Source of the DNA: Mesorhizobium sp. J8
GTDB taxonomy: Bacteria > Pseudomonadota > Alphaproteobacteria > Rhizobiales > Rhizobiaceae
DNA length: 64,000 nucleotides
NCBI RefSeq assembly: GCF_016591715.1
Contig: NZ_AP024109.1
Coordinates: 4,712,001 to 4,776,000, forward strand
Direction: 5' to 3'
The notes under the pieces are model-generated. The model was not told the origin of the DNA. It saw only the letters and a list, made by a program, of their open reading frames with translations, and did not search any database. This document shows positions 5,145 to 24,850 of the stretch, piece by piece. A program made the position numbers and the translations under genes. Each line of letters begins with the position of its first letter. The stretch's first letter is position 1.

Positions 5145-6764
5145 ATGGAAGCGACGGTATTTGACTACATCGTCGTCGGCGCTGGGTCGGCCGGTTGCGT
5201 GGTCGCCAATCGGCTGAGCGCCGATCCGTCCGTCAGCGTGTGCCTTATCGAGGCCGGCGGCAGCGACAACAGCCTGCGCGTCAAGGTGCCGGCGGGCATC
5301 CTCTCCCTCTACGGCAATCCGAATTACGACTATTGTTTCGTCGGCGTGCCGCAACCCCATCTCAACAATCGCAGGATTCCGGTCAACCGCGGCAAGGCGC
5401 TGGGCGGATCGAACTCGATCAACTCGATGGTTTATATTCGCGGCGCCGCCGAAGACTATGACGAGTGGGCCGGGCTCGGCTGCGCCGGATGGGCCTATCG
5501 CGACGTGCTTCCCGTGTTCAGGAAGCTGGAGCGCAACCTGCTCGGCCAGGATCCGCGCTATCACGGCACAGACGGCGAGCTTTTGGTCGACAATCCGCGT
5601 GATCCGAACTTGCTTTCCGCCATGTTCGTCAAGGCTGGGGAAAATGCCGGTCTGCCCGCCAACACCGACTTCAACGCCGAGAGCCAGTTCGGCGTCGGCA
5701 TCTACAACGTCACGCAAGACCGCGGACAGCGGTTCAGCAGCTTCAGCGCCTTCATGCGTCCGGTGCTTCATCGCAAGAACCTGATGCTGCTCAGCGAATG
5801 CGAGGTGATCGACCTTGTCATCGCCGAAGGGCGCGCTACGGGAATGCGCGTACTGCATGACGGTCAGCAGAAGACGCTCTCGGCCAGCCGCGAGATCGTG
5901 CTTTCGGCCGGCGCCATCAACTCGCCCAGGGTTCTGATGGCCTCCGGCATCGGTCCGGCTGCCGAACTCCAAGCGATCGGCATCACGCCGGTCCTCGACC
6001 TGCCCGGCGTCGGCAAGAACCTGCAGGATCATGTCGACGGCATGATCACCGTGCGCTCCAGGAGCACCAGGACGCTCGGCCTTTCGTTTGCCAACCTGCC
6101 GCGCATCGCCGCCGCGCCCTTCCAGTATTTCGCGCGCCGCAGGGGCATGCTCACCACCAACTACGTCGAAGCCGGCGGCTTCGCGAAGACCAGGCATGCG
6201 AACGGCCTTCCCGACATCCAGTTCCATTTCGTGCCGGGCTATCGCAGCCATCGCGGCAGGCTGATCGAGTACGGCCACGGCTACGCCATTCACACCTGCG
6301 TTCTAAGGCCGAAAAGCGTGGGCGAGATCAGGCTGTCGCGCGACAATTCCCACCGCGACGTCCTGATCGACCACCGCTTCTTCACGCATGAAGACGACGC
6401 CATGGTGCTGGTCGAGGGCATCAAGATCGCGCGCCGGATCTTTGCCTCGTCCGAATTCGACACGGTGCGCGGCAAGGAGATGCTCCCGGGTAAGGATGTC
6501 CGGACCGACGACGAGATCCTCGCCTATCTGCGTGCCGAGGCGCTGACCGTCTATCACCCGGTCGGGACCTGCAAGATGGGAACGGACGATATGGCCGTCG
6601 TCGATCCGGCGACCCTCAAGGTACGCGGCGTGGACAGGCTTCGGGTCGCGGATGCGTCGGTTATGCCGAAGCTGATCGGCGGCAATACCAACGCGCCCAG
6701 CATGATGATCGGACAGAAGGCTTCCGAGATGATCCTCGGCTCGACGCAGAACGGCCAAAGGTAA
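5145..6764 (+). CDS. GMC family FAD oxidoreductase (choline dehydrogenase-like)
   Basis: A 539-residue protein with the N-terminal FAD motif VVGAGSAGCVVANRLS, GKALGGSNSINSM (GMC signature 1 region), SAGAINSPRVLMASGIGP (GMC signature 2), LPGVGKNLQDH, and the C-terminal active-site regions YHPVGTCKMG, containing the catalytic His, and GGNTNAPSMMIGQKA. Length and motif order match alcohol and choline dehydrogenases. The enzyme would oxidise an alcohol to an aldehyde with FAD. GGGGG lies upstream of the ATG as a ribosome site. Being downstream of the amidohydrolase, it may oxidise a hydroxyl product of it, with the aldehyde passed to the ALDH at 1-760 (inference). Confidence 0.92.
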   Translation: MEATVFDYIVVGAGSAGCVVANRLSADPSVSVCLIEAGGSDNSLRVKVPAGILSLYGNPNYDYCFVGVPQPHLNNRRIPVNRGKALGGSNSINSMVYIRGAAEDYDEWAGLGCAGWAYRDVLPVFRKLERNLLGQDPRYHGTDGELLVDNPRDPNLLSAMFVKAGENAGLPANTDFNAESQFGVGIYNVTQDRGQRFSSFSAFMRPVLHRKNLMLLSECEVIDLVIAEGRATGMRVLHDGQQKTLSASREIVLSAGAINSPRVLMASGIGPAAELQAIGITPVLDLPGVGKNLQDHVDGMITVRSRSTRTLGLSFANLPRIAAAPFQYFARRRGMLTTNYVEAGGFAKTRHANGLPDIQFHFVPGYRSHRGRLIEYGHGYAIHTCVLRPKSVGEIRLSRDNSHRDVLIDHRFFTHEDDAMVLVEGIKIARRIFASSEFDTVRGKEMLPGKDVRTDDEILAYLRAEALTVYHPVGTCKMGTDDMAVVDPATLKVRGVDRLRVADASVMPKLIGGNTNAPSMMIGQKASEMILGSTQNGQR

Positions 6765-10083: not shown

Positions 10084-10653
10084 CTAGGCCGCCAAGGCGC
10101 CCGACTTCTTCGCGGTCCAGGTGGCGATATAGTCCATCAGGCCGGGGCTGAGGCAGTCATAGGGCTCCAGCCCGATCGACTTCAGCTGGCCGCGAATGCC
10201 GGCCATGCGGTCCGGGTCGACGCCGGATTCGATGATCGAGGAGACGAAAGCGGCAAAGCCCGGCGGCGACCAGCCGTCCTCCTCGAAGCGTTCGGGATGG
10301 ATGAAGGACAGGCCCTTGAAGGGATGGTCGCGCTCGACCGGGCCGTACATGTGGACGCCGCAGCCGGTGCAGGCATGGCGCTGGATCAGCGCGCTTGGAT
10401 CGACCACCTTGAGCTTGTCGCCGTTCTCGGTGACGGTGACGTCGCCGCTGCCGGCAACGGCCACGACCGAGAAGATGGCGCCTTCCGGCTTCCAGCACTT
10501 GGTGCAGCCGCAGGCATGGTTGTGGGCGATCTGGCCCTTGACCTTCACCTTCACCGGCTTGCTGGCGCACAGGCAGACCAGCGTGCCGCCGGCAAAGGAT
10601 GCGCTCTCCTTCGGCAGGCCATTGTCGATCTTCGGATGCAGTTTCTCGGCCAT
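10084..10653 (-). CDS. gfa: S-(hydroxymethyl)glutathione synthase (glutathione-dependent formaldehyde-activating enzyme)
   Basis: A 189-residue protein of the normal Gfa length. Zinc-binding cysteines are seen in [10 protein letters not shown] (CxC, about residues 31-33) and ACGCTKCW (about residues 53-58), with another in [13 protein letters not shown]. The enzyme speeds the condensation of formaldehyde with glutathione. It lies 68 bases downstream of frmA on the same strand, so the two enzymes for the first steps of formaldehyde oxidation are co-transcribed. With XoxF in this window making formaldehyde (or formate), the pair is the expected detoxification and energy route. The cytoplasmic location fits the absence of a signal peptide. 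Confidence 0.95.
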
Positions 10654-10721: not shown

Positions 10722-11849
10722 TCAGTAAACCACGACGCTCCTGATCGACTTGCCCTCGTGCATGAGTTCGAAACCCTTGTTGATGTCTTCGAGCTTCAGC
10801 GTGTGGGTGATCATCGGATCGATCTGGATCTTCTTTTCCATGTACCAGTCGACGATGCGCGGCACATCGGTGCGGCCGCGCGCGCCGCCGAAGGCGGTGC
10901 CCATCCAGGTGCGGCCGGTGACCAGCTGGAACGGGCGTGTGGAGATCTCCTGGCCGGCGCCGGCAACGCCGATGATGACCGACTTGCCCCAGCCGCGATG
11001 CGATGCTTCGAGCGCCTGGCGCATCACCTTGGTGTTGCCGGTGCAGTCGAAGGTGTAGTCGGCGCCGCCGATCTGGTCGGCGCCGCGCTTGGTCATGTTG
11101 ACCAGGTAAGGCACGATGTCGCCGTCGATCTCCTTCGGATTGACGAAATGCGTCATGCCGAACTTCTCGCCCCAGGCCTTCTTGTCGTTGTTCACATCGA
11201 CGCCGATGATCATGTCGGCGCCGGCAAGGCGAAGACCCTGGATGACGTTCAAACCGATGCCGCCGAGGCCGAAGACGACAGCGGTGGCGCCCTGCTCGAC
11301 CTTGGCCGTGTTGATGACGGCGCCGATGCCGGTGGTGACGCCGCAGCCGATGTAGCAGATCTTGTCGAAGGGCGCGTCGGGATTGACCTTGGCGACCGCG
11401 ATCTCCGGCAGCACGGTGAAGTTGGAGAAGGTCGAGCAGCCCATATAGTGGAACAGCTTCTCGCCGCCGACCGAGAAGCGCGAGGTGCCGTCGGGCATCA
11501 ATCCTTGCCCCTGCGTGGCGCGGATGGCGGTGCACAGGTTGGTCTTGCGCGACAGGCATGACGGGCACTGCCGGCATTCGGGCGTGTAGAGCGGGATGAC
11601 ATGGTCGCCCTTTTTGACCGAGGTCACGCCCTTGCCGACATCGACGACGATGCCGGCGCCCTCATGGCCGAGGATCGCCGGAAAGATGCCTTCCGGATCG
11701 GCGCCCGACAGCGTGAACTCGTCGGTGTGGCAGATGCCGGTCGCCTTGACCTCGACCAGCACCTCGCCCTCGCGCGGGCCTTCCAGGTCCACCTCCATGA
11801 TCTCCAGCGGCTTTCCGGCACCAACAGCAACGGCGGCACGGGTCTTCAT
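10722..11849 (-). CDS. frmA: S-(hydroxymethyl)glutathione dehydrogenase / class III alcohol dehydrogenase
   Basis: A 375-residue zinc alcohol dehydrogenase of class III. Seen: [14 protein letters not shown] (catalytic zinc Cys), [12 protein letters not shown], the structural zinc cysteines in [16 protein letters not shown], the Rossmann motif [14 protein letters not shown] and the class III-type C-terminus [14 protein letters not shown]. It oxidises S-hydroxymethylglutathione to S-formylglutathione with NAD+. It is also called adhC or flhA in alphaproteobacteria. No S-formylglutathione hydrolase gene is seen in the window, so that step must be encoded elsewhere. A 10-bp inverted repeat at 11887-11909 sits in its upstream region. 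Confidence 0.96.
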
Positions 11850-12240
11850 GAGGCACTCCTCCCAAGGCAGTCGAAAAACCTATGTTCCGGCGGACTTGAA
11901 GTCCGCCGGGCAACAAAAATACCGTTTCCAAGCCGCAGTGAGGTCGCAATAATCGAACGGTCTCCCTCATAAGTCTATTCTACCAAGGTCCCCCCACCCC
12001 TCACCACCCGGATAGATGTATTGGCTGATATCGAGGGATCGACCGGGAATTTCCGCACAGTTTTCGGCATGTCGTAATCCGCTTGATCGCCAGTCTCCTG
12101 CTGCTGGCAAGTAGGACTAAAGCAGAAGCGACAGGTCGGCCCACGGGGTTTGATAAATCCAACACGTCCGCTAAGTTTTCCGCGGGGCACCTTGGCTTGG
12201 CGCTGGTCCGGCACGATTGGACGCGACGCGAGAGTGGGTA
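11850..12240. promoter_or_regulatory. divergent promoter region between frmA and the lut/ped-like operon
   Basis: 391 bases with no supported gene. A 10-bp perfect inverted repeat (CCGGCGGACT at 11887-11896, AGTCCGCCGG at 11900-11909, 3-base loop) lies 38-60 bases upstream of the frmA start. It could be an operator or a leader hairpin of frmA. Promoters for both directions must lie here; no sequence close enough to a sigma-70 consensus to call was found. Confidence 0.5.
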
Positions 12241-13497
12241 ATGTTGTCGATGGCAAGCGCGGTGCCGAGCACTCTCAGGTCCTTTTTGTGCTTTCTTTTC
12301 CTAACCGCCAGTTTTTGCGGTGTGGCAGCCGAGGAAGCGAGCAAGCAGCCGGCTGCAACGGCCAAGCCTGAGAAGAAGATCACAGAAATCAAGATAGGCT
12401 ATTTGCGGGCATATGCGCCGCAACTGACGCTTTCCTTGCTCGACCAGCCGCCGAGGGACGAGGGTGTTGCCGGCGCCAAGGTGGCGATCGGCGACAACAA
12501 CACGACGGGAGCGTTCCTCGGCCAGAAGTTCAGCCTCGACATCACCGAAATGAAGCCCGACTCCGACGCGGTCCAGGCATTCGACGGCCTGATCGCCAAG
12601 GGCGACCGCTATGTGGTCGCCGACCTCTCGGCCAAGCAGTTGCTGTCCATTGCCGACATTGCCCGCGACAAGGGCGTGCTGATCTTCAACATCGGCGCCA
12701 CCGACGACAGCCTGCGCGAGGAGGACTGCCGCATAAACGTCTTCCACATCGCGCCGACGCGCAGCATGCTGGCGGACGCGCTGGCGCAGTACCTCATGGT
12801 GAAGAAATGGCCGAACTGGGTGCTGCTCTACGGCTCGCATGAGCAGGACCATCTCTACGCCGATGCGCTGCGCCGCGCGGCCGCCCGTTTCGGCGGCCAG
12901 ATCGTGGCGGAGAAGGAGTTCAAGGACAACGGCACCGCCAGGCGCACCGACACGGGCGCCACGCAGATCCAGCAGCAGATTTCCGTATTCACGCAGGACC
13001 TGCCGGAGCACGACGTGGTGCTGGTCGCCGACGAGAGCGAGGTATTCGGCACCTATGTGCCCTACCGCACCTGGACGCCGCGGCCGGTCGCGGGCACGGC
13101 CGGACTTGTCGCCTCGTCATGGCATCCCTCGAGCGAACAGTGGGGCGGCATCCAGATGCAGAGCCGCTTCCTGAGGACGACGGGCCGGCAGATGTTGTCC
13201 AAGGACATGTCGGCCTGGACGGCCGTGCGGGCCGTCGGCGAAGCCACCACGCGGACCAATGGCGACGATCCGAAAAAGATCAGCGACTACATCCGCTCGG
13301 ACGATTTCTCGGTCGCCGCCTTCAAGGGCCAGAAGCTGACCTTCCGCAAATGGAACCTGCAGTTGCGCCAGCCGATCCTGCTCAGCGACGCCAAGTCGGT
13401 CGTCTCGACCTCGCCGCAGGAGGGCTATCTCCACCAGGTTTCCGAGCTCGACACGCTCGGCGTCGACCAACCGGAGACCAAATGCGCCCTTAAGTAG
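12241..13497 (+). CDS. periplasmic ABC-type substrate-binding protein of a PQQ alcohol dehydrogenase/lanthanide system (LutA/PedA-like)
   Basis: A 418-residue protein with a signal peptide (hydrophobic core LRSFLCFLFLTASFCGVAA) and then EIKIGYLRAYAPQLTLSLLDQ. The body has the two-lobe Leu/Ile/Val-binding-like pattern (TGAFLGQKFSLDI, LIFNIGATDDSLR, WVLLYGSHEQDH, VVLVADESEVFG). This matches the family described as the substrate-binding protein of PQQ-dependent alcohol dehydrogenase systems. ATG 12241 is chosen because the signal peptide follows directly. It heads a six-gene run ending at 17329. By gene order it corresponds to the binding protein of the lut cluster of Methylorubrum and the ped transporter of Pseudomonas, both linked to lanthanide handling. 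The ligand is not proven. Confidence 0.8.
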   Translation: MLSMASAVPSTLRSFLCFLFLTASFCGVAAEEASKQPAATAKPEKKITEIKIGYLRAYAPQLTLSLLDQPPRDEGVAGAKVAIGDNNTTGAFLGQKFSLDITEMKPDSDAVQAFDGLIAKGDRYVVADLSAKQLLSIADIARDKGVLIFNIGATDDSLREEDCRINVFHIAPTRSMLADALAQYLMVKKWPNWVLLYGSHEQDHLYADALRRAAARFGGQIVAEKEFKDNGTARRTDTGATQIQQQISVFTQDLPEHDVVLVADESEVFGTYVPYRTWTPRPVAGTAGLVASSWHPSSEQWGGIQMQSRFLRTTGRQMLSKDMSAWTAVRAVGEATTRTNGDDPKKISDYIRSDDFSVAAFKGQKLTFRKWNLQLRQPILLSDAKSVVSTSPQEGYLHQVSELDTLGVDQPETKCALK

Positions 13498-13519
13498 CAA
13501 GCAATCGGGAGGAGTTTCG

Positions 13520-14491
13520 GTGCAAGGACGAGCTTGTGCACTCGCCATTCTCGCGACCGGCCTCATGGTCGGTCCGGCATCGGCCTATACGGCCTATGTC
13601 TCCAACGAGAAGGACAACACCATGACCGTCGTCGACACGGCGACGATGAAGGTGATCAAGACCGTCGATGTCGGGCAGAGGCCGCGCGGCATCACGATTT
13701 CGCCCGACGGCAAGTTCGTCTATCTGTGCGCCAGCGACGACGACACGGTGCAGATCATCGATACGTCGAGCCTTGAGGTCGTTGGCGATCTGCCCTCGGG
13801 ACCGGATCCCGAATTGTTCGTGCTCTCGCCCGACGGCAAGACGCTTTATATCGCCAACGAGGACGACAATCTGGTCACCGTCGTCGATGTCGCGAGCAAG
13901 GCGGTGCTTTCGGAGATCCCGGTCGGCGTCGAGCCGGAAGGCATGGGCGTCAGCCCTGACGGCAAGACCATGGTCAACACCTCCGAAACCACCAGCATGG
14001 CGCATTTCATCGACACCCAAAGCCATGAGGTGACCGACAACGTGCTCGTCGATACGCGCCCCCGCTTCGCCGAATTCAAGCCCGATGGCTCCCAGGTCTG
14101 GGTCAGCGCCGAGGTCGGCGGCACGGTCAGCGTCATCGACAACGCCAAGCGCCAGGTGGTGAAGAAAATCCAGTTCGCGATCAATGGATTGCGGGCTGAA
14201 ACCATCCAACCTGTGGGCATTGCCATAACCGTAGACGGCAAGAAGGCCTATGTCGCGCTCGGTCCGGCGAACCATGTCGCGGTGGTCAACACCGAAACCT
14301 ATGAAGTGGAGAAATACATCCTCGTCGGCCAGCGCGTCTGGCACCTGGCCTTCACCCCGGACCAGAAGACGCTGATCACCACGAACGGCAATTCGAACGA
14401 CATCACCTTCATCGATACGGCGACCGATGAACCGGTCCAGTCGCTCACCGTCGGCCAGCAGCCGTGGGGCGTGGCCATATCGCCCAACTAG
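13520..14491 (+). CDS. YVTN-family beta-propeller protein, PQQ/lanthanide system-associated
   Basis: A 323-residue exported protein from a GTG at 13520, placed 6 bases after GGGAGGAG. A signal peptide ends near ASAYTAY. The body is built of repeated blades of the form VVDTATMKVIKTVDVGQRPRG...SPDGKFVYL, then IIDTSSLEVVGDLPSG, VVDVASKAVLSEIPVGVEPEG, VIDNAKRQVVKKI and FIDTATDEPVQSLTVGQQPWG: about seven blades of about 42 residues. Propellers of this type occur beside PQQ-dependent alcohol dehydrogenases; the lut cluster has a comparable gene (recalled, not checked). It probably works in the periplasm. It lies 22 bases after the binding-protein gene. Confidence 0.85.
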   Translation: MQGRACALAILATGLMVGPASAYTAYVSNEKDNTMTVVDTATMKVIKTVDVGQRPRGITISPDGKFVYLCASDDDTVQIIDTSSLEVVGDLPSGPDPELFVLSPDGKTLYIANEDDNLVTVVDVASKAVLSEIPVGVEPEGMGVSPDGKTMVNTSETTSMAHFIDTQSHEVTDNVLVDTRPRFAEFKPDGSQVWVSAEVGGTVSVIDNAKRQVVKKIQFAINGLRAETIQPVGIAITVDGKKAYVALGPANHVAVVNTETYEVEKYILVGQRVWHLAFTPDQKTLITTNGNSNDITFIDTATDEPVQSLTVGQQPWGVAISPN

Positions 14492-14523
14492 CGATGTCCC
14501 AAGCAGATCGGGAGGTTCATTCC

Positions 14524-14964
14524 ATGACGATCAACCGAACGATTGCCGTCGCCGTTCTGGCCGGACTGACGGTTGCTCCGCTCAGGGCCAGCGCCGACGA
14601 TGCGCCGAAGGTGACGCGATCCAGCAAGACCCTCCCTGAGCTGGTCCTGGGCTCGGACCAATCCAGCTACGACGTCAACCGGACGGATTTCGAGCTGATC
14701 GCCGGCCAGGGCTATCGCTGGAAGATCACGTCTCACGGCGGCTTCGAATACAAATTCATGACCGATCTCTGGCGAAACGTCTGGATCGACCAGATCGTGA
14801 TAAACGATCTCGAAGTGCACATGGCCGGCGCGCCGGCCTGGCTCGAATTCGACGACGCGGGAACCATATTGGTTCAGTTCCACACCGTGCGCCCCGGCGA
14901 GTACAGCTGGTCCGTCCCCGATCTTGCCGACAAGGGTCTCAAGGGAAAGATCACGATCAAATGA
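14524..14964 (+). CDS. small exported protein of the lut/ped-like operon, function unknown
   Basis: A 146-residue protein from ATG 14524 with GGGAGG about 8 bases upstream, and a signal peptide (VAVLAGLTVAPLRASA). The mature part is rich in beta strands and aromatic residues (GYRWKITSHGGFEYKFM, LWRNVWIDQIVIND, HTVRPGEYSWSVPD), which suggests a small beta-sandwich like a cupredoxin or Ig fold. There are no cysteines and few His/Met, so the copper site of true cupredoxins is absent. It contains several Asp/Glu that could bind a metal ion. It sits between the propeller and ATPase genes of the putative lanthanide-handling operon. Function unknown. Confidence 0.75.
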   Translation: MTINRTIAVAVLAGLTVAPLRASADDAPKVTRSSKTLPELVLGSDQSSYDVNRTDFELIAGQGYRWKITSHGGFEYKFMTDLWRNVWIDQIVINDLEVHMAGAPAWLEFDDAGTILVQFHTVRPGEYSWSVPDLADKGLKGKITIK

Positions 14965-15016
14965 GAGCTGGCAAATGAGACCTGGCAAACGAGAGCGGGC
15001 GAATGAAACCGGCGCA
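14961..15016 (+). repeat. four degenerate 14-bp tandem repeats before the ATPase gene
   Basis: ATGAGAGCTGGCAA, ATGAGACCTGGCAA, ACGAGAGCGGGCGA and ATGAAACCGGCGCA follow one another without gaps at 14961-15016. The first overlaps the stop codon of the upstream gene. They lie immediately before the GTG start at 15031. Confidence 0.8.
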
Positions 15017-15030
15017 CACATGAGGACAGG

Positions 15031-15828
15031 GTGATCGGCGTGCGGCATCTGCGGACAGGCGGTTCGGGAAATGAGGTGGCGGCGCTCGACGTCGCCGGCG
15101 TCAGCCATTCCTACGGTCCCAAACGGGCGCTGAACAACGTATCCTTCTCGATCGCGCCGGCGACTTTCACCGTCCTGCTCGGCCTCAACGGCGCCGGCAA
15201 GACAACCTTGTTTTCGCTGATCAGCCGTCTTTACGACACGCGCCACGGATCGATCCGCATCTTCGGCCATGACATCCGCCGCGCTTCCGGCGAAGCGCTC
15301 AGATGCGTCGGCATCGTGTTCCAGGCACGCACCCTCGACCTTGACCTCAGCGTGCACCAGAACCTTTCCTACCACGCCTCGCTGCACGGTATCGGTGGAC
15401 GTGAGGCCCGGCAGCGCATCGCCACCCTGCTCGAAACGGTCGATATGCAGGGCCGTGACCATGACAAGGCCCGCTCCCTCTCCGGCGGCCAGATGCGACG
15501 GATCGAAATCGCCAGGGCGCTGCTGCACCGCCCCGCCCTGCTGCTGCTCGACGAGGCGACGGTCGGCCTCGACATCCAGTCGCGCGCCGGCATCCTCGCC
15601 ACCATCCGCCGGCTCGTCGACACCGAAGGCATCGGCGTTTTGTGGGCCACGCACCTGATCGACGAGGTCGACGACGGCGACCATGCCGTCGTGCTGCGGC
15701 AGGGAAACCTCGTCGCCAGCGGCACGGTCTCCGATCTCATCCATGCCAGCGGCGCCGATTCGATCCGCGACGCCTTCTCGAAGCTCAACCGGGCCGAGAC
15801 GGCCGGCATTGCAGGGATTTCGCCATGA
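15031..15828 (+). CDS. ABC transporter ATP-binding protein, PQQ alcohol dehydrogenase/lanthanide system (LutE/PedB-like)
   Basis: A 265-residue ATPase from GTG 15031 preceded by GAGGACAGG. Seen: Walker A GLNGAGKTT (about residues 51-59), Q-loop IVFQARTLDLDLSV, signature SLSGGQMRRIEIARALL, Walker B LLLLDEATVGLDIQSR and H-loop LWATHLIDEVD. The GLNGAGKT and FQARTLDLDLSV forms are typical of ABC-2 type systems rather than binding-protein importers, as in Nod-factor, daunorubicin or ped systems. It overlaps the permease start by four bases (ATGA). With the permease it forms a transporter whose direction (export or uptake) is not settled by sequence. Confidence 0.9.
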   Translation: MIGVRHLRTGGSGNEVAALDVAGVSHSYGPKRALNNVSFSIAPATFTVLLGLNGAGKTTLFSLISRLYDTRHGSIRIFGHDIRRASGEALRCVGIVFQARTLDLDLSVHQNLSYHASLHGIGGREARQRIATLLETVDMQGRDHDKARSLSGGQMRRIEIARALLHRPALLLLDEATVGLDIQSRAGILATIRRLVDTEGIGVLWATHLIDEVDDGDHAVVLRQGNLVASGTVSDLIHASGADSIRDAFSKLNRAETAGIAGISP

Positions 15829-16700
15829 GCACGTCCGCGATGCCGCAGAAGGTCGCCTCCATCACACCGGTGCGGTCCGGCGCATTCGGCCTCCGTCACT
15901 ATCTCATCTGCCTCAAGGGCGTCGTCCTGCGCGAGTGCCTGCGTTTCCTGCATCAACGCGAGCGCTTCGTCTCCTCGCTGGTCAGGCCGCTCGTCTGGCT
16001 GTTCATCTTCGCCGCCGGCTTTCGCCAGGTGCTCGGCGTCTCGATCATCCCACCCTACAAGACCTACGTGCTCTACGAGGTCTACATCACGCCCGGCCTG
16101 TGCGGCATGATCCTTTTGTTCTCCGGCATGCAGTCCTCGCTGTCGATGGTCTACGACCGCGAGATGGGCAATATGCGCATCCTGCTCGTCAGCCCGTTTC
16201 CGCGCTGGTTCCTGTTGGTGTCGAAGATGCTCGCCGGCGTCGCCGTATCGATCGCCCAGGTCTATGCGTTCCTGATCGTGGCGTGGTTCTGGGGCGTCAA
16301 GGCGCCGCCCCTCGGCTACCTGTTCGTGCTGCCGGCGCTGTTCTTGTCGGGCATGATGCTTTGCGCCCTCGGAATGCTTTTGTCCTCGATGATCAAGCAG
16401 CTCGAAAACTTCGCCGGCATCATGAACTTCGTCATCTTTCCCGGCTATTTCGCCTCACCCGCCCTGTATCCGTTGTGGCGCATCCAGGAAGCCAGCCCTC
16501 TCCTCTACAAGATCTGTCTCGTCAATCCGTTCACCTATGCCGTCGAGCTGATCCGTTTTGCCTTTTACGGGCAGGTCGATTGGGTGTCGCTGGGCGTGGT
16601 CGCCGGATGCACGCTGCTGTTTCTGGCCGGAGCCATCATCGCCTACGACCCCTCGCGCGGGCTGATGACCCGCAAGCAGGACACGGGAGGAAATGCCTGA
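15825..16700 (+). CDS. ABC-2 type permease, PQQ alcohol dehydrogenase/lanthanide system (LutF/PedC-like)
   Basis: A 291-residue membrane protein from ATG 15825. About six hydrophobic segments are visible: VRPLVWLFIFAAGF, PGLCGMILLFSGM, VAVSIAQVYAFLIVAWF, FVLPALFLSGMMLCALGMLL, FAGIMNFVIFPGYFASPAL and LGVVAGCTLLFLAGAII. YDREMGNMRILLVSPFPRWFLLVSK is the intracellular segment typical of ABC-2 permeases. Its start overlaps the ATPase stop and its stop overlaps the next gene start (TGATG), so the genes are tightly coupled. It pairs with the ATPase at 15031-15828. Confidence 0.9.
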   Translation: MSTSAMPQKVASITPVRSGAFGLRHYLICLKGVVLRECLRFLHQRERFVSSLVRPLVWLFIFAAGFRQVLGVSIIPPYKTYVLYEVYITPGLCGMILLFSGMQSSLSMVYDREMGNMRILLVSPFPRWFLLVSKMLAGVAVSIAQVYAFLIVAWFWGVKAPPLGYLFVLPALFLSGMMLCALGMLLSSMIKQLENFAGIMNFVIFPGYFASPALYPLWRIQEASPLLYKICLVNPFTYAVELIRFAFYGQVDWVSLGVVAGCTLLFLAGAIIAYDPSRGLMTRKQDTGGNA

Positions 16701-17329
16701 TGGCGAGAACAGCCTTTGCTGTCAGCGTGGTTATGGTTGGCCTGTTCGCGCCGGCAACAAACGCCGGCGCGGCGACCGCCGATCCGGACTGGCCATGCGT
16801 CCAGCGCAAGGTGCCGCAATTGTCGCTCGGCCAGGTCTGGAACGGGCCAGACCTTCCGCCGTCGGCCAAGGACTGGTCAGACGACGCGTCGGTCTCCGCC
16901 CTTGTCGAGGACGTCGCGGCACGGCGGCTGCCGCTCGCCGACGCCCAGAAGAAGATCAGGGATTTCGCGGCGTCCCTGCCGGCCGAGCAGCTTGCGCCGA
17001 AAATGGCGATGGTCGTGCAGGGCATGTTCGACCACATGGACGCCGAGCGCTCGCACGTGATTGCCGGCATCGCTCGCTATGCCCACAGGCAGCTCGAAAT
17101 GGCCGCCGACTTGCGCAAGCAAGCGTCCGATGTCGATGCGTTGCGCGCAAAGCCCGGCGCGGATCCCGACGAGGTCGAGCGCCGGACCGACCAGTTGAAT
17201 TTCGCGACGCGGATCTTCACCGAGCGCGCGCAATCGCTGACTTACGTCTGCGACGTGCCGAACATCATCGAGCAGCGGCTTTACCAGCTGGCCAAGACCG
17301 TCTCGGAGACGCTTGCGGCGAAGAAATAA
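16700..17329 (+). CDS. exported protein of the lut/ped-like operon, function unknown
   Basis: A 209-residue protein whose ATG shares a base with the permease stop; GGGAGG lies 9 bases upstream. A signal peptide ends near AGAATA. The mature part begins DPDWPCVQRKVPQLSLGQVWNGP and is mostly helical after residue 60, ending with a long amphipathic helix. Two cysteines (CVQRK near the mature start, VCDVPN near the end) could form a disulfide that ties the termini. A protein of this kind closes the comparable clusters near PQQ dehydrogenases. No domain with known activity was recognised. Probably periplasmic. Confidence 0.8.
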   Translation: MARTAFAVSVVMVGLFAPATNAGAATADPDWPCVQRKVPQLSLGQVWNGPDLPPSAKDWSDDASVSALVEDVAARRLPLADAQKKIRDFAASLPAEQLAPKMAMVVQGMFDHMDAERSHVIAGIARYAHRQLEMAADLRKQASDVDALRAKPGADPDEVERRTDQLNFATRIFTERAQSLTYVCDVPNIIEQRLYQLAKTVSETLAAKK

Positions 17330-17374
17330 CGCATGGCCCCCCAAACGCACACCGGTCTCGAAAAACGCGTCCCG

Positions 17375-17575
17375 TCAGCTGCTGCGGCCGGGCAGCACGC
17401 GCCAGCGCTGCACGAAGTAGCCGGGATGCGTCTCCAGCCAATGCGCGACCAGCGGCTGCGCCTGCATGAAGGCCACTCCGGGATTCATGGCTAAGCCGTC
17501 CGCCATTTCCTCGCGTTGCTCGCATGTCTGCGGCACGGCTGACATGCAGACCATCATCACGATTGTATAAAGCAT
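17375..17575 (-). CDS. small Cys-containing protein, paralogue of the 19076 gene
   Basis: A 66-residue protein from ATG 17575 with AAGGGGAAGGGG just upstream. It reads MLYTIVMMVCMSAVPQTC at the start, then AQPLVAHWLETHPGYFVQRW. This aligns along its whole length with the product of 19076-19285 (shared: VC[ML]SA, C, the A-W-HP-V-RW pattern). Here two of the four cysteines of the other copy are replaced (by Phe and Val), while the first two are kept. It is not recognised beyond this family resemblance. The N-terminus is mildly hydrophobic. Confidence 0.7.
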   Translation of the reverse strand: MLYTIVMMVCMSAVPQTCEQREEMADGLAMNPGVAFMQAQPLVAHWLETHPGYFVQRWRVLPGRSS

Positions 17576-17801
17576 TGCCCCTTCCCCTTCGAAATCCCGA
17601 ACCCCACGCCGGGACGCAAGGCGATTTGCCTGCAGGGTTTGGCTGCCCTTCCGTCTTACCGCGAGTGTGAAGCGACTGCCCCTGCCCTTCCCGCGTCGCA
17701 GCATAACATGCGAGCTTGGGAGTCACCATCTGCGGCGACCCGGTTGTCCACCCCCTTCCGGACCTTTTCGCACGACCTCGACGGCGGATATGTAAGGTGC
17801 T
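17576..17801. other. intergenic region, no gene seen
   Basis: 226 bases between the small Cys protein gene and the cbbR remnant. It should contain the promoter of the 17375 gene (minus strand). No domain, RNA gene or clear repeat was recognised. Confidence 0.4.
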
Positions 17802-18066
17802 TCACCCGCGCCGCGTTCCGGGTGCCCTCGCCTGTTGCGTCCGTGCTGCTTCATCCGCTTCGGCGCGTGGATACAGCTTGCCGAGTAGGGGCAGGTAAGT
17901 CGCACCTTTGCGCATCAGGAAATCGTTGAAGGTCGCCATGGCCGGCGACATCACGTGATCGGTTCGCATCACCGAAAACCATTGACGGCGGATCGGCATG
18001 CCGGCCACGTCGAGGATGACGAGCCGGCCGGTTCCCGTTTCCGCTGCGATCGTGCGGGCGGAGACT
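17802..18066 (-). pseudogene. cbbR: 3' remnant of a LysR-type regulator, CbbR-like
   Basis: Reading the minus strand from about 18066, the frame gives VSARTIAAETGTGRLVILD, then VAGMPIRRQWFSVMRTDHVMSP, then FNDFLMRKGATYLPLLGKLY, and stops at 17802. This is the C-terminal end of the effector domain of a LysR regulator and is most like CbbR, the Calvin-cycle operon activator. The N-terminal two thirds, including the helix-turn-helix, are missing. At 18065-18067 the sequence switches abruptly into the 3' end of a gph/cbbZ-like gene on the other strand. Identity as CbbR is from memory of the family; membership of the LysR C-terminal domain is firmer. Confidence 0.75.
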
Positions 18067-18265
18067 TCAGGTCGAACCGCACGAAGCGCTGATGGTTGGA
18101 GACAGCATCAGCGATGTCGGCGCGGCGCGCGCGGCCAGCATGCCGATCGCTCTGCTGCGCGGTGGCTACACCCATGTGCCCGTAGAAGAGCTGGACGCGG
18201 ATCTTGTCTGCGACAGCCTGCTCGATCTGCCCTCCGCCATGCAGAGGCTGCAAGCCGCGGCCTGA
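18065..18265 (+). pseudogene. cbbZ: 3' remnant of a phosphoglycolate phosphatase gene (gph/cbbZ-like)
   Basis: The plus strand from 18065 reads LQVEPHEALMVGDSISDVG, AARAASMPIALLRGGYTHVP and a helical tail ending LQAAA before the stop at 18263-18265. MVGDSxxDVxAARAA and GGYTHVP are HAD motif III/IV features of phosphoglycolate phosphatase. The N-terminal two thirds, including the DxD nucleophile motif, are absent and no start codon or ribosome site precedes it. It abuts the cbbR-like remnant with no spacer. cbbZ is commonly at the downstream end of cbb operons, so the join fits a deletion spanning the operon. Confidence 0.75.
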
Positions 18266-18339
18266 CAGGCGGTGTCGATTACCCAGCCAGTCGCCTAAAC
18301 TAGCCGATCGAAAAAGCGAACCACCGGCGAAGCCGTCAC

Positions 18340-18430
18340 TTCGAGAGCTGCCTCGACTTGAGAACTGCCCTGCTTTGAGAATTGCCCCTGCTTTGAGAAC
18401 TGCCCTACTTTGAGAACTGCTTGAGATAGG
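18340..18430 (-). repeat. 17-18 bp tandem repeats overlapping the 3' end of the cytochrome c gene
   Basis: About five copies of TTGAGAACTGCCCTGCT-like units lie at 18340-18420, with the last running into the coding end of the cytochrome gene. On the minus strand each unit resembles CAGTTCTCAAAGTAGGG, which is the coding sequence for the C-terminal QFSK plus stop. The array therefore looks like repeated duplication of the gene's own end. Units vary by a few bases. Confidence 0.8.
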
Positions 18431-18785
18431 CGATGACGTTGGCCACGTCCTTGTCGTCCTTGAGGCCGACAAACGCCATCTTCGTGCCCTTAACCATGGC
18501 CTTTGGATCGTGGAGATAGGTCGTCAGCGTCGGTTCGTCCCATTTGACGCCGGACTTTCCAGCCGCGACCATGGCCTGGGAATAGCTGAAACCCGGATGC
18601 GTGCCGGCCGTGCGGCCGATGACGCCGTTCAACGACGGACCGACCTTGTTCTGGTCCTTGTCCGCGACGTGGCAGACCTTGCATTTGGTGAAGACCTTCT
18701 CACCGGCCGCCGCGTCCTGCGCATAGGATTCGTCCGTGATGAAAGTAACCAGGAAAATGGCGGCGAAAAATGCGATAACGCGCAT
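18405..18785 (-). CDS. c-type cytochrome, class I (cytochrome c550/c2-like), periplasmic
   Basis: A 126-residue protein with a signal peptide ending ESYAQD, heme motif CKVCH (about residues 35-39), and KVGPSLNGVIGRTAGTHPGFSYS, typical of small soluble class I cytochromes. KGTKMAFVGL supplies the Met axial ligand. It is transcribed toward the deletion scar. Lying between the lut/ped-like genes and xoxFGJ, it could pass electrons from the XoxG cytochrome to the terminal oxidase; that role is inference. Its last codons are inside a tandem-repeat array. Confidence 0.92.
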   Translation of the reverse strand: MRVIAFFAAIFLVTFITDESYAQDAAAGEKVFTKCKVCHVADKDQNKVGPSLNGVIGRTAGTHPGFSYSQAMVAAGKSGVKWDEPTLTTYLHDPKAMVKGTKMAFVGLKDDKDVANVIAYLKQFSK

Positions 18786-19075
18786 GGCAATTCCTCATTA
18801 ATCGTCAAATGCCCGGCGCCCGCAAAAAGCTAACCGGAGGCAGGCGGAAGTCAATCGTACGAAGGTCCAGTCTCCGGCATTCGACCGAGTCGATCCTGTA
18901 CTTTCGCCTTTGTTGACGGTCCCGGGACGAGCGCGTAGCCTCGGATCGTTGTTGGATTTCCAAGGGCACCTCGGGACATCGGTCAGGCTGGCTCGATCCA
19001 GGCTGAGATTTGCCCAGGCAATGGGGTAGGCGGCATTTCGCTGGAGCGGGCGTCGTCGCGCGCGAGAGGTGCTGA
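18786..19075. other. intergenic region, no gene seen
   Basis: 290 bases between divergent cytochrome and small-protein genes. It must hold promoters for both. No convincing consensus, RNA gene or repeat was recognised. Confidence 0.4.
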
Positions 19076-19285
19076 ATGAACATGGTCGACCTCATCTTGA
19101 CGGTTTGCCTGAGTGCCAATCCCGGCGCTTGCCGGGACGAGCATCTCTATTTTGAAAGCCGCGGCTCCCTGTTCCAATGCATGATGCTGGCGCCCAGCGA
19201 AATCGCGAAATGGTCGCAGGAACACCCGGCCTTGAAGGTCAGGCGTTGGAAATGCGCTTTCCCGACGAAGGACCGGGCGATCTGA
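19076..19285 (+). CDS. small four-cysteine protein, paralogue of the 17375 gene
   Basis: A 69-residue protein with GAGAGG shortly upstream of its ATG (a second ATG two codons later is possible). Four cysteines: TVCLSANPGAC near the start, FQCMML in the middle and RWKCAFP near the end. The Cys pattern suggests two disulfides and hence a periplasmic location, though the N-terminus is only a short hydrophobic stretch. It aligns with the 17375-17575 product, which lies on the other side of the cbb scar and lacks the last two cysteines. Not recognised otherwise. It is 37 bases upstream of an ABC binding-protein gene. Confidence 0.75.
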   Translation: MNMVDLILTVCLSANPGACRDEHLYFESRGSLFQCMMLAPSEIAKWSQEHPALKVRRWKCAFPTKDRAI

Positions 19286-19322
19286 CCGGCGCCGCTGGTT
19301 TGTTCCAACCCCGGGAGAACGC

Positions 19323-20312
19323 ATGATGATTTCGCGGCGGGAAACGCTTCGTTTGGCGGCTCTTGGAACGGCGGCGGTTCTCGGCGCACAGTCCATTGCC
19401 GCCGCCGCGTCCAAGGTCCGCATCGGCGTGCTGAAGTTCGGCACGGTAAGCTGGGAGCTTGATACGCTGAAGCAACATAGTTTCGACGCGGCCAACGGGA
19501 TCGATTTGGACGTCGTCAATTTCGCCGGCGAGGATGCGACCAACGTGGCGATGCTGGCAGGCGCGATCGACATCATCGTGACCGATTGGCTGTGGGTGTC
19601 GCGCCAGCGTTCGGAGGGCGGCGACGTGACATTGGCCCCCTATTCGACTTCCGTCGGCGCGATCATGGTGGAGGACGCATCGCCGATCCGCACGATCGCC
19701 GACCTCAAGGGAAAGAAGATCGGCGTCGCCGGCGGGGCGCTCGACAAGAGCTGGCTGCTGATACAGGCGCTGGCCAGGCGCGATCACGGCCTCGACCTGC
19801 CGGCGGTGACCGACGTCGTGTTTGGCGCGCCGCCGCTAATTTCGCAAAAGGCCATCCAGGGCGAACTCGATGCGGCGCTCAACTTCTGGCATTTCTGCGC
19901 CCGGCTCGAGGCCGGCGGCTTTCGCCGGCTGATCGGCGCCGACGGCGCGCAGATAGCGCTCGGCGCCTCGGGCCCGGTATCCGCGCTTGGCTATGTATTC
20001 CACGACAAATGGGCGAACGAGAACCCGCGGGCCGCCCGCGGCTTCCTCAAGGCTTCCGCGCAGGCCAAGGATCTGCTGGCAAGGTCCGACGAAGAGTGGC
20101 TGCGCCTCGCGCCGGTCATCCGCGCGGACGGCAAGGAGTTGGCAAAGCTGCGCGACCGCTACCGCGAGGGTATCCCCAGGCGGCCGGTCGCCGAGGAAGC
20201 GGCCGATGCCGGCAAGCTCTATCGGGTGCTGGCCGCAATCGGCGGCGAAAAGCTGGTCGGCAGCGCGCCGGAGATGGCCCCTGGCACATTCTGGCGGGAG
20301 CCGCCGCAATGA
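19323..20312 (+). CDS. ABC transporter substrate-binding protein, NitT/TauT-like, probable Tat substrate
   Basis: A 329-residue protein. The N-terminus SRRETLRLAALGTAAVLGA has a twin-arginine motif followed by a hydrophobic stretch and an Ala-rich cleavage region, suggesting Tat export. The body has KVRIGVLKFGTVSWELDTLK and IRTIADLKGKKIGVAGGALDKSW, typical of NitT/TauT binding proteins. It starts a three-gene importer (binding protein, permease, ATPase) lying between the small Cys protein and xoxF. The location inside the methanol-oxidation island suggests a ligand connected to it (metal complex, PQQ or C1 compound); this is inference. Confidence 0.88.
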   Translation: MMISRRETLRLAALGTAAVLGAQSIAAAASKVRIGVLKFGTVSWELDTLKQHSFDAANGIDLDVVNFAGEDATNVAMLAGAIDIIVTDWLWVSRQRSEGGDVTLAPYSTSVGAIMVEDASPIRTIADLKGKKIGVAGGALDKSWLLIQALARRDHGLDLPAVTDVVFGAPPLISQKAIQGELDAALNFWHFCARLEAGGFRRLIGADGAQIALGASGPVSALGYVFHDKWANENPRAARGFLKASAQAKDLLARSDEEWLRLAPVIRADGKELAKLRDRYREGIPRRPVAEEAADAGKLYRVLAAIGGEKLVGSAPEMAPGTFWREPPQ

Positions 20313-21136
20313 CGGTAAAAGATGGCGGCGGGCACACGCTTGGCGAAGCGGCCGGCATTTCCAAAGGTTCCGTCTCGGCGGCAATGCTGATGCCCGCGCT
20401 GACGGTGACGATCTCCCTGCTCGGGCTCGGACTGCTGTGGAGCCTGGCGGCGAATGCCTGGCCGAGCCGCGCCTTTCCGGGACCGGGACAGGTCTGGCAG
20501 GTATTGCTGAGAGAGGCGGCGAGCGGCGACCTTTTCTACCACCTCGGCGCGACCTTCGGCCGAGTCGCGGCCGCATACCTCGTCGCGATGATCGTCGGAT
20601 CGGTAATCGGCATCCTCCTCGGCAGCTACCGCCGCGCGGACCGGTTCTTCAACCCCTGGGTCATCCTGTTCCTCAATATTCCCGCGCTGGTGATCATCGT
20701 GCTGGCCTATATCTGGTTCGGCCTCAACGAGGCGGCGGCGATCGGCGCGGTTGCCGTTAACAAGATCCCGAATGTCGTGGTGACAATGCGCGAAGGCGCT
20801 AGGGCGCTGGACCCCCGTTACGCCGAAATGGCGGCGGTCTACCGCTTCGGTCCGCTTGACCGCCTTCGCCACATCCTGCTGCCGCAACTGCAGCCTTATC
20901 TGGCGGCGGCCTCGCGCTCCGGCATCGCTCTCATCTGGAAGATCGTCCTGGTGGTGGAACTGCTCGGCCGCTCCAATGGCGTTGGCTTCCAGATCCATCT
21001 CTATTTCCAGCTTTTCGACGTCGCCGCCATTCTTGCCTACACGCTGGCATTCGTGGCGGTGATGCTGGTGATCGAACTACTTCTGGTGCAGCCCGTTGAA
21101 CGACATGCAACCCGTTGGCGCCGCCGCCCCGCTTAG
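20309..21136 (+). CDS. ABC transporter permease, NitT/TauT type
   Basis: A 275-residue membrane protein from ATG 20309, overlapping the binding-protein stop by four bases. Hydrophobic segments include ALTVTISLLGLGLLWSLA, AAYLVAMIVGSVIGILLG, PWVILFLNIPALVIIVLAYIW and VAAILAYTLAFVAVMLVIELLL. The cytoplasmic loop MAAVYRFGPLDRLRHILLPQL is the EAA-like coupling helix. The frame is open far upstream, but the 20309 start gives the normal length and coupling. Confidence 0.9.
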   Translation: MTVKDGGGHTLGEAAGISKGSVSAAMLMPALTVTISLLGLGLLWSLAANAWPSRAFPGPGQVWQVLLREAASGDLFYHLGATFGRVAAAYLVAMIVGSVIGILLGSYRRADRFFNPWVILFLNIPALVIIVLAYIWFGLNEAAAIGAVAVNKIPNVVVTMREGARALDPRYAEMAAVYRFGPLDRLRHILLPQLQPYLAAASRSGIALIWKIVLVVELLGRSNGVGFQIHLYFQLFDVAAILAYTLAFVAVMLVIELLLVQPVERHATRWRRRPA

Positions 21137-21845
21137 GGTCGACATCGCCGAGAAGACCTTCAGATCCGCGCACGGCGTCTCGGTCACAGCGCTCAAGAAC
21201 CTTTCCTTCGAGGTCCGGCAAGGCGAATTCGTCTGCCTGCTCGGGCCATCGGGCTGCGGCAAGACCACGACGCTGCGCATTCTGCTCGGGCTCGACAGAC
21301 AATTCTCCGGTTCTTTCCAGTTGCCCGGAGGTGGCTCGAACCGCATAGCCGCCGTGTTCCAGGAACCCACCCTGCTGCCCTGGCGAACGGTGGAAGAGAA
21401 TGTCAGGCTTGCGCTGCCGAAAAGTCTGCGCATGAAAAATCTCGACGCGCTGTTAGACACGCTCGGCCTCACCGGCATGCGCTCCCTCTATCCGTCCGAG
21501 CTATCGCTCGGCCTTGCAAGAAGAGTAGCCCTTGCACGGGCCTTCGCGATCGAACCTGCGGTGCTGTTCCTCGACGAGCCGTTCGTCTCGCTCGACGAAC
21601 GGACCGCCGGGCAGCTCCGGCGCCTGCTTCTTGATGTCTGGTCGGCCCGGCCCACGACAGCCCTGATGGTGACGCACAACCTGACCGAAGCCCTGGCGCT
21701 TTCGGATCGCATCATCGTGCTTGCGCCGCGGCCCTCGCACGTGCTCGGCGTTTTTGACATAGGACTGCCCAGGCAGCACCGCAGCCCCGAGGCGGCGAAC
21801 GACCTTTTGCGATCCTTCCATCAGAAATTTCCGGGCGTGACCTGA
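21096..21845 (+). CDS. ABC transporter ATP-binding protein with degenerate signature motif
   Basis: A 249-residue ATPase overlapping the permease by about 40 bases. Walker A GPSGCGKTT (about residues 49-57), Q-loop AVFQEPTLLPWRTV, Walker B VLFLDEPFVSLDE and H-loop MVTHNLTEAL are intact. The ABC signature, normally LSGGQ or LSGGM, reads LSLGLARRVALARAF, so the two glycines that contact ATP across the dimer are partly replaced. It may still work, as the surrounding RVALARAF is kept. It completes the importer with genes at 19323 and 20309. Confidence 0.9.
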   Translation: MNDMQPVGAAAPLRVDIAEKTFRSAHGVSVTALKNLSFEVRQGEFVCLLGPSGCGKTTTLRILLGLDRQFSGSFQLPGGGSNRIAAVFQEPTLLPWRTVEENVRLALPKSLRMKNLDALLDTLGLTGMRSLYPSELSLGLARRVALARAFAIEPAVLFLDEPFVSLDERTAGQLRRLLLDVWSARPTTALMVTHNLTEALALSDRIIVLAPRPSHVLGVFDIGLPRQHRSPEAANDLLRSFHQKFPGVT

Positions 21846-22930: not shown

Positions 22931-24850
22931 ATGCGCGCACTTACGCAAGCTACCTACATCGCAACTACCACTGCGCTACTGTCGTTGGGCGCGCTCTATA
23001 CAGCGTCCGCCAACGAAGAACTCGCGAAGATGGCCGAAAACCCGAAAGACTGGGTGATGCAGACGGGTGATTACGCCAACACCCGTTACTCCACACTGAA
23101 GCAAATCACCAAGGACAATGTGAAGAACCTGCAGGTCAAGTGGACCTTCTCGACCGGCGTGCTGCGCGGCCATGAGGGCGGGCCGCTGATCATCGGCGAC
23201 GTGATGTATGTTCACGCCCCGTTCCCGAACACCGTCTATGCGCTCGATCTCAACAAGGATGGAAAGATCCTGTGGAAGTACGAGCCCAAGCAGGACACCA
23301 ACGTCATTCCGATCATGTGCTGCGACACGGTCAATCGCGGCGTTGCCTATGCGCCTGCCGATGGCGACCGCCCGGCGCTGGTCATCCTCAACCAGGCCGA
23401 CACTACGGTCGTGGCGCTCGATGCCAAGACCGGAAAGGTCGTGTGGTCGGTCAAGAACGGCGAGAACACCGACGGCGGAAAGGGCGAATCCGGCACCTCG
23501 GCGCCCGTGGTCGTCAAGGACAAGGTCCTCGTCGGCGTCTCCGGCGCGGAGTTCGGCGTCCGCGGCTGGCTGGCCGCCTACGATCTGAAGGACGGCAAGC
23601 TCGCCTGGAAGGCTTATTCGGAAGGTCCGGACGCGGACACGCTGCTCGATCCCGAGAAGACGACGCAGCTCGGCAAGCCGGTGGGGAAGGACTCCGGCAC
23701 GAACACCTGGGAAGGCGAGCAGTGGAAGACAGGCGGCGGCACGACATGGGGATGGTATTCCTATGATCCCAAGCTGAACCTCGTCTATTACGGCACCGGC
23801 AATCCCTCGACCTGGAATCCCGTCCAACGTCCCGGCGACAATCGCTGGTCGATGACCATCTTCGCCCGCGATGCCGACACCGGCGTGGCCAAGTGGGTCT
23901 ATCAGATGACCCCGCATGACGAATGGGACTATGACGGCATCAACGAGATGATCCTCGTCGACGGCATGGAGGTCAAAGGCAAGAAGCACGACGTGCTGGT
24001 GCATTTCGACCGTAACGGCTTCGCCTACACCATGGATCGCGCCACCGGCGAGCTTCTCGTCGCCAAGAAGTACGATCCGGCGGTGAATTGGGCGACCGAA
24101 GTCAATATGGACCCCAACAGCAAGGAATACGGCCGCCCGCAGGTCGTGGCCAAATATTCCACGCAGCAGAACGGCGAAGACACAAACTCGACGGGTATCT
24201 GCCCGGCAGCGCTTGGAACCAAGGACCAGCAGCCGGCCACCTACTCGCCGAAGACCGGGCTATTCTATGTGCCGACCAACCACGTCTGCATGGACTATGA
24301 GCCGTACAAGGTGAGCTACACCGCCGGCCAGCCTTATGTGGGCGCCACCGTATCGATGTATCCGGCGCCCGGCGGCGACGGCAACATGGGCAACTTCATT
24401 GCCTGGGATGCCGCCAAGGGTGAGATCGTCTGGTCGAAGCCCGAGCAGTTCTCGGTGTGGTCGGGCGCGCTGGCGACCGCCGGCGACGTCATCTTCTACG
24501 GGACGCTCGAAGGCTACATCAAGGCGGTCGATGAGCACGGCAAGGAACTCTACAAGTTCAAGACCCCATCCGGCATCATCGGCAACGTCACGCCCTTCGA
24601 GCACAACGGCAAGCAATATATCGCCGTTCTGTCCGGTGTCGGCGGCTGGGCAGGCATCGGCCTCGCCGGCGGACTGCTGTCACCCGACAACGCCGCTGCC
24701 TGGCACGGCGCCGTCGATCAGGGCCGCGCGCAGGGCGATCAGGCCGCGGTCGTCGGAACCGCCGGTCTCGGAGCGGTCGGTGGCTACGCGGCGCTTGCCG
24801 ACTACACGACGCTGGGCGGCCAGCTCACCGTCTTCGGTCTTCCGGATTGA
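22931..24850 (+). CDS. xoxF: lanthanide-dependent methanol dehydrogenase, PQQ quinoprotein
   Basis: A 639-residue protein from ATG 22931 after GGGAGGA; the frame is open upstream, but a signal peptide ([19 protein letters not shown]) follows this ATG. Family features: tryptophan-docking repeats ([14 protein letters not shown] at the start, repeated GKVVWS/GKILWKY blades), the vicinal disulfide MCCDTV, and [15 protein letters not shown]. In that motif the catalytic Asp is followed two residues later by a second Asp, which in XoxF coordinates the lanthanide; calcium-type MxaF has Ala there. It oxidises methanol (often to formate) in the periplasm, donating electrons to XoxG. No mxaFI genes are present in the window. 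Confidence 0.97.

Follow-up and report, generated by a model that had tools for sequence, protein, structure and literature searches.

The window, by which we mean the whole stretch of DNA analysed here (64,000 nucleotides of the Mesorhizobium sp. J8 genome), carries an island of methanol-oxidation genes around xoxF, and within this island the 3' ends of two Calvin-cycle (cbb) genes lie directly against each other on opposite strands. The features are given below; all TIGR models named in the list scored above their cut-offs, and B4-1-3 is the nearest intact relative described further on.

10084..10653, minus: S-(hydroxymethyl)glutathione synthase (gfa); TIGR02820
10722..11849, minus: S-(hydroxymethyl)glutathione dehydrogenase; TIGR02818
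12217..13497, plus: PQQ-alcohol-dehydrogenase-associated ABC substrate-binding protein, left flank of the island; TIGR03863, 495 bits
13520..14491, plus: PQQ-associated beta-propeller protein; TIGR03866, 511 bits
15031..15828, plus: PQQ-associated ABC ATPase; TIGR03864, 329 bits
17802..18064, minus: cbbR remnant; 263 nt, comprising the last 86 sense codons, the stop and two bases; colinear with the 3' end of the B4-1-3 gene L031:6019-7008
18064..18065, no strand: deletion junction; the counterpart of 10,536 bp of B4-1-3 (L031:6282-16817) is absent
18065..18265, plus: gph/cbbZ remnant; 201 nt, comprising the last 66 sense codons and the stop; colinear with L031:16818-17018
18405..18785, minus: small cytochrome c; Pfam Cytochrom_C; the same gene stands directly downstream of gph in intact relatives
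19323..20312, plus: NMT1-type periplasmic binding protein, followed by a permease and an ATPase; PF09084; colinear in relatives
22937..24850, plus: XoxF, lanthanide-type methanol dehydrogenase, intact; TIGR03075
25009..25533, plus: XoxG-like c-type cytochrome, methanol-metabolism-related; TIGR03874, 233 bits
25535..26407, plus: XoxJ/MoxJ-like binding protein; TIGR03871, 294 bits
26707..27765, plus: pqqB (start not refined); TIGR02108, 396 bits
27726..28520, plus: pqqC (start not refined); TIGR02111, 337 bits
28786..29955, plus: pqqE (start not refined); TIGR02109, 524 bits

The methanol genes are all open, namely those for XoxF, XoxG, XoxJ, the PQQ-linked ABC proteins, the glutathione pathway and PqqB, PqqC and PqqE. 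The DEWDYD motif, whose last Asp we take to mark the lanthanide types, is present in the XoxF alignment. The best solved relative of the enzyme is the XoxF structure 6oc5 (E 1e-292), and the nearest solved structures are XoxF enzymes.

Two gene remnants and their junction

Both short reading frames at the scar are pieces of genes whose start regions are missing. The one on the minus strand (P0002, window 17802-18065) matches the CbbR model NF045990 (NCBIfam) at profile positions 247-304 of 304 (E 5e-11) and the one on the plus strand (P0001, 18062-18265) the phosphoglycolate phosphatase model TIGR01449 at positions 153-212 of 213 (E 3e-12); both stay under the whole-protein cut-offs because they are fragments. 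With Pfam the Gph piece lies above the cut-off of PF13242 (Hydrolase_like, 34.8 vs 22 bits), and LysR_substrate is narrowly missed by the CbbR piece (24.3 vs 28 bits). In B4-1-3 the full-length genes measure 990 nt (cbbR) and 702-717 nt (gph), and what is left of cbbR, the gene of a LysR-type Calvin-cycle regulator, has neither the start nor the DNA-binding domain nor most of the effector domain. A first-pass annotation of the window had described the two pieces as the last about 88 codons of a CbbR-like gene on the minus strand and the last 67 codons of a gph/cbbZ-like gene on the plus strand, joined without a spacer at about 18065-18067. Both family assignments hold and so does the gph count, which is 66 sense codons plus the stop; the CbbR piece comes to 86 sense codons plus the stop, and in the alignment with B4-1-3 the two homologies do abut with zero spacer, the join lying between 18064 and 18065.

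Within 30 bp on either side of the deletion ends of B4-1-3 no repeat or microhomology was seen, the longest common word being an out-of-register one of 5 nt. The remnants abut with no insertion sequence between them. Homologous recombination between repeats as the route of the deletion was therefore rejected. The junction suggests end-joining without homology; a microhomology of 1-2 nt is possible, the end contexts being those of B4-1-3 and not of the immediate ancestor. Inspection by eye showed short imperfect tandem repeats (ctttgagaactgccc...) in the interval from the gph stop to the cytochrome c gene (window 18300-18420); in B4-1-3 the copies are fewer or different.

It could be argued that an intact cbb operon exists in the strain and was skipped by the assembler, as the analysis worked from one assembly alone. 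However, the genome is a single contig of 6,690,860 bp (6.69 Mb), 100% complete with a contamination value of 0.15 and with no RuBisCO large chain or phosphoribulokinase found anywhere in it, and the end contexts of B4-1-3 have no common repeat that could collapse. Moreover, a truncated Gph of 57 residues, one residue off that of the window, is on record from a separate 940-bp contig (cluster of 3), and truncated CbbR forms a cluster of 2 members, the window's own among them. These clusters hint at the same scar in further strains, and another cause is possible. The single contig, the missing end repeat and the near-identical truncated Gph on a separate contig make an assembly fault very unlikely.

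The intact locus in relatives and the direction of the change

Using window 17700-18420 as DNA query against 146 genomes of the genus, the own genome counted in, 53 gave matches, part of them by short chance-like matches alone. In 37 of the 146 the two halves of the query lie on one contig and are separated by 10,531-10,687 bp (median 10,624; the left half ends at query 363-365, and the right half starts at query 366 or slightly later), and this co-occurrence is not chance. Three genomes (G077, G080, G098) have the halves far apart or on separate contigs. A single match across both halves was found in the source genome only, out of the 146.

The nearest intact relative, Mesorhizobium sp. B4-1-3 (G102), is colinear with the window over about 22 kb except for 10,536 bp. 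The identity is 94.7% over 11788-18064 and 92.8% over 18065-21285, with the 10,536 bp in between, and the alignment continues at about 94% as far as 34000, where the compared stretch ends, with one more gap of about 100 bp. The block shows the gene order cbbR-cbbFPTALSXE-thioredoxin-gph, with cbbR and gph lying mostly inside it, and the genes between these two encode fructose-bisphosphatase, phosphoribulokinase, transketolase, class II aldolase, the large and small RuBisCO chains, CbbX, ribulose-phosphate epimerase and a thioredoxin-family protein. Two genes of the block stay below the family cut-offs, namely cbbR, whose best model is CbbR with 346 of 450 bits, and the thioredoxin gene, which matches ResA weakly; all the others pass. 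In the first-pass annotation one deletion from inside cbbR to inside cbbZ was proposed to have taken the whole operon, and an alignment with syntenic loci was named as the check. A single deletion of this kind is indeed what the comparison shows, because B4-1-3 carries the cassette exactly between the two fragments, and intact cbbR-...-gph blocks stand at the same site in relatives; to be added is the thioredoxin-family gene between cbbE and gph, which was lost along with the operon. The intact Mesorhizobium island (B4-1-3, L031/L043) agrees with the window in gene content and gene order on either flank, at 93-95% DNA identity, and differs from it in keeping the 10,536-bp block.

The arrangement is also found outside the genus. 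In Phyllobacterium zundukense (NZ_CP017942) cbbR-FPTALSX-rpe-thioredoxin, without gph, adjoins the cytochrome c, binding-protein and xox genes known from the window, and cbb and pqq genes are neighbours there too. For Sinorhizobium, the first-pass annotation had given cbb and pqq genes as neighbours, and this is stated in passages of Mineo et al. 2025 (PMC12628762), according to which xoxF, glutathione, lanthanide-uptake, CBB and PQQ genes of S. meliloti 2011 pSymB lie within one 28.5-kb region.

In order to polarise the change, DNA trees of the two flanks were reconstructed. The right-flank tree (XoxF, binding protein and ATPase) has 28 rows, left from 34 loci after five without full XoxF and L042, which is on the same contig as L043, were dropped; the left-flank tree has 11 rows. 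The window is sister to B4-1-3 inside CBB-bearing strains in both (100/99 for the right flank and 100/100 for the left), and because of this nesting its state is a loss. The starred branches require at least three changes of the cbb state in the right-flank tree and at least four in the left-flank tree. That the cassette was instead inserted in the relatives, the window being the ancestral empty site, has its starting point in two genomes (G120 and G031) which have XoxF without form I RuBisCO or phosphoribulokinase and which the right-flank tree places outside the CBB carriers, leaving room for a single gain of the cassette at the base of the clade. Yet the window keeps the fused 3' ends of both terminal genes, unlike an empty site, both trees join it to B4-1-3 with full support, P. 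zundukense carries this cassette, though lacking gph, next to the cytochrome c and xox genes also seen here, and G120 itself falls inside a carrier, G074, in the left-flank tree. The fused gene ends and the nesting led us to reject insertion, which we regard as practically negligible. The conflicting position of G120 (L124) reflects either recombination of the island or weak placement.

Two observations concern the cbb genes of other strains. In G077, whose scar-equivalent halves lie about 264 kb apart, the form I cbbL (L034:8893-10119) is split by more than one frame change; we did not count this as a second broken cbb case, as by our own reading the frame changes look like indel errors of long-read assembly. 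In eleven further loci (L056-L061, L063, L073, L096, L110 and L117) cbbL (82-83%) and cbbX (67-69%) have moved much further away from B4-1-3 than the neighbouring cbbA and cbbE (90-96%), suggesting that in one Mesorhizobium clade the cbbLSX part was swapped for another type.

One-carbon genes of the genome and XoxF without the Calvin cycle

No RuBisCO large chain or phosphoribulokinase was found elsewhere in the J8 genome. The first-pass annotation had spoken of CO2 assimilation lost at this place and had proposed a search for RuBisCO in the rest of the genome, and the result widens its claim: there are no matches to the RuBisCO large chain, by a model which in other genomes of the genus also picks up RuBisCO-like proteins, and none to phosphoribulokinase (CbbP), with a query giving 3e-198 in B4-1-3 and 6e-194 in G077. 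As neither enzyme was found, no Calvin-cycle CO2 fixation is to be expected anywhere in this genome. A formate dehydrogenase alpha chain is present above cut-off. Of the parts of an XoxF-CBB island, the strain thus has XoxF, XoxG and XoxJ, the glutathione pathway and formate dehydrogenase, and is without RuBisCO and phosphoribulokinase. A second PQQ alcohol dehydrogenase with 53% identity to the XoxF of the window is encoded at G000:C1:1802816-1804441.

The genome also encodes a formate-tetrahydrofolate ligase (E 6.5e-270), through which some C1 could still reach serine, glycine and purines. It is thus conceivable that C1 is still assimilated by this ligase together with glycine and serine synthesis and that the strain is not restricted to energy, but against this the search of the genome gave for crotonyl-CoA carboxylase/reductase (Ccr) 29 weak matches, none over cut-off, and for hexulose-phosphate synthase (Hps) and Fae no matches, mtkA and mcl lying outside the search. 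In addition, a passage of PMC12628762 (section 23) reports all tested Mesorhizobium strains to be without key genes of the complete serine/EMC pathway, and we consider C1 assimilation by this route improbable.

Among the 146 genomes, a XoxF of 82-100% identity occurs in 44 and form I RuBisCO, separated from RuBisCO-like proteins by E-value class, in 47; 40 genomes have both, 7 only RuBisCO and 4 only XoxF. These four are J8 (G000), G031, G070 and G120, and CbbP was found in none of them. XoxF stands near the cytochrome in at least 23 loci (among 80 of the 120 matched loci), 21 of which have cbbL; L052 is without it and L069 ends before cbbL would be reached.

L052 belongs to Mesorhizobium sp. 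WSM3860 (G070; L052/L123). Its DNA has 84-88% identity up to window 17737 and resumes at 18405, and in between 247 bp without detected similarity to B4-1-3 or to the window site (L123 about 5466-5712, reverse complement) replace the whole cbbR-gph cassette. As both trees nest WSM3860 among CBB carriers (smallest starred sets 100/100), its state is a second loss, one that left no remnants. In G120 there could be a third loss or, together with G031, which is in the right-flank tree only, an ancestral absence. On plasmid pSK01 of R. leguminosarum BIHB 1148 (L138) the xox, PQQ-ABC and glutathione-pathway genes stand together with no cbb genes there, and a search of the plasmid alone for CbbL gave only a 29%-identical match. 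WSM3860 and pSK01 are like the window in having a XoxF island without cbb at the same place and unlike it in having no cbbR or gph remnants. They represent older or cleaner losses, with Rhizobium possibly never having had cbb.

Age of the deletion and use of methanol

Between the window and B4-1-3 XoxF shows 59 synonymous and 5 nonsynonymous differences (dN/dS 0.024), with 3 nonsynonymous to 37 synonymous changes on the lineage of the window. The cbbR and gph remnants are still open, with dN/dS values of 0.14 and 0.20 against B4-1-3, and have collected 17 changes, compared to 16 in the same stretches of B4-1-3. The low ratios and the similar number of changes suggest that the deletion is probably young relative to the split from B4-1-3, the nearest sequenced relative. 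Dating the scar by the decay of the remnants was tried and given up, as 17 changes are too few: 8 of the 17 fall on codon positions 1 and 2, the intact neighbours having 29 such changes out of 91 (Fisher p 0.27), and p is 0.075 vs neutrality. With a probably recent deletion the low ratio of XoxF says little about the time thereafter, and its conservation may be mostly older than the deletion.

Taken together we are highly confident that a block of about 10.5 kb, reaching from cbbR to gph/cbbZ, has been deleted from a XoxF-CBB island, that methanol would still be oxidised without assimilation of the CO2 and that the deletion is probably young. The deletion itself is near certain, and the physiology is what we infer from it. 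We propose that a single illegitimate (repeat-less) event, from inside cbbR to inside gph/cbbZ, would have removed cbbF, cbbP, cbbT, cbbA, cbbL, cbbS, cbbX, cbbE and the thioredoxin-family gene from the ancestral island. Methanol would then be oxidised to formaldehyde by XoxF with XoxG, to formate by the glutathione pathway and to CO2 by formate dehydrogenase, which would yield electrons and NADH, and the CO2 would no longer be assimilated. Such a strain would be methylovorous, using methanol for energy only and requiring another carbon source.

As passages of Mineo et al. 2025 (PMC12628762) describe, rhizobia grow on methanol via XoxF, the glutathione pathway, formate dehydrogenase and CBB, and deletion of cbbS in B. 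diazoefficiens USDA 110 abolishes this growth; the same source infers from gene presence that the route is widespread, Mesorhizobium included. The window likewise has XoxF, glutathione-linked formaldehyde oxidation, formate dehydrogenase and PQQ genes, and differs from the Bradyrhizobium and Sinorhizobium islands in the deletion of its cbb genes, of which nothing but the ends of cbbR and gph is left, in a genome where no RuBisCO large chain was found. By the logic of the cbbS mutant, J8 should oxidise methanol and should not grow on methanol alone; judged from its genes, the strain can probably burn methanol for energy and probably can no longer build biomass from it. The same physiology has been described for SAR11, where according to passages of PMC3160333 C1 compounds are an energy source and not a sole carbon source, and energy-only methanol use is also mentioned in part of a commentary on the Mineo study (PMC12997859). 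Here it is proposed from genes alone; SAR11 are other organisms, and those passages of PMC3160333 do not trace methylovory to a lost assimilation operon.

A serious rival to energy-only methanol use is a methanol module in decay, in which XoxF is useless without CBB and is conserved merely because the deletion is recent. The open and little changed remnants fit this, as little time seems to have passed. However, WSM3860, which is nested among CBB carriers without any cbb remnant, has a XoxF with 23 nonsynonymous to 74 synonymous changes, similar to the CBB-bearing L053 (25 to 80), and the R. leguminosarum plasmid holds an island without cbb at the same place. We thus regard a leftover near decay as unlikely, though less so than the other alternatives, and methylovory as the likeliest outcome and benefit. 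Tentatively, and with some doubt, we go one step further: the assimilation half of the rhizobial island may be expendable and repeatedly lost and the oxidation half kept by selection, with XoxF often serving methylovory on plant-derived methanol, J8 being a fresh switch and WSM3860 and R. leguminosarum the stable end state.

Among the literature matches listed, no title or beginning of an abstract describes a cbb deletion in a xox island; Fig. 7 or the supplements of PMC12628762 may show xoxF strains without CBB. The locus is a natural and complete knock-out of the assimilation half with a close intact relative at hand, so that the value of XoxF without CO2 fixation can be asked directly. A Mesorhizobium with xoxF need not be able to grow on methanol, as 4 of the 44 genomes with this XoxF are without form I RuBisCO. 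Finally, a passage of PMC12628762 connects RuBisCO in Bradyrhizobium with the colonisation of roots and the occupancy of nodules, so that the loss of cbb may also bear on symbiosis.
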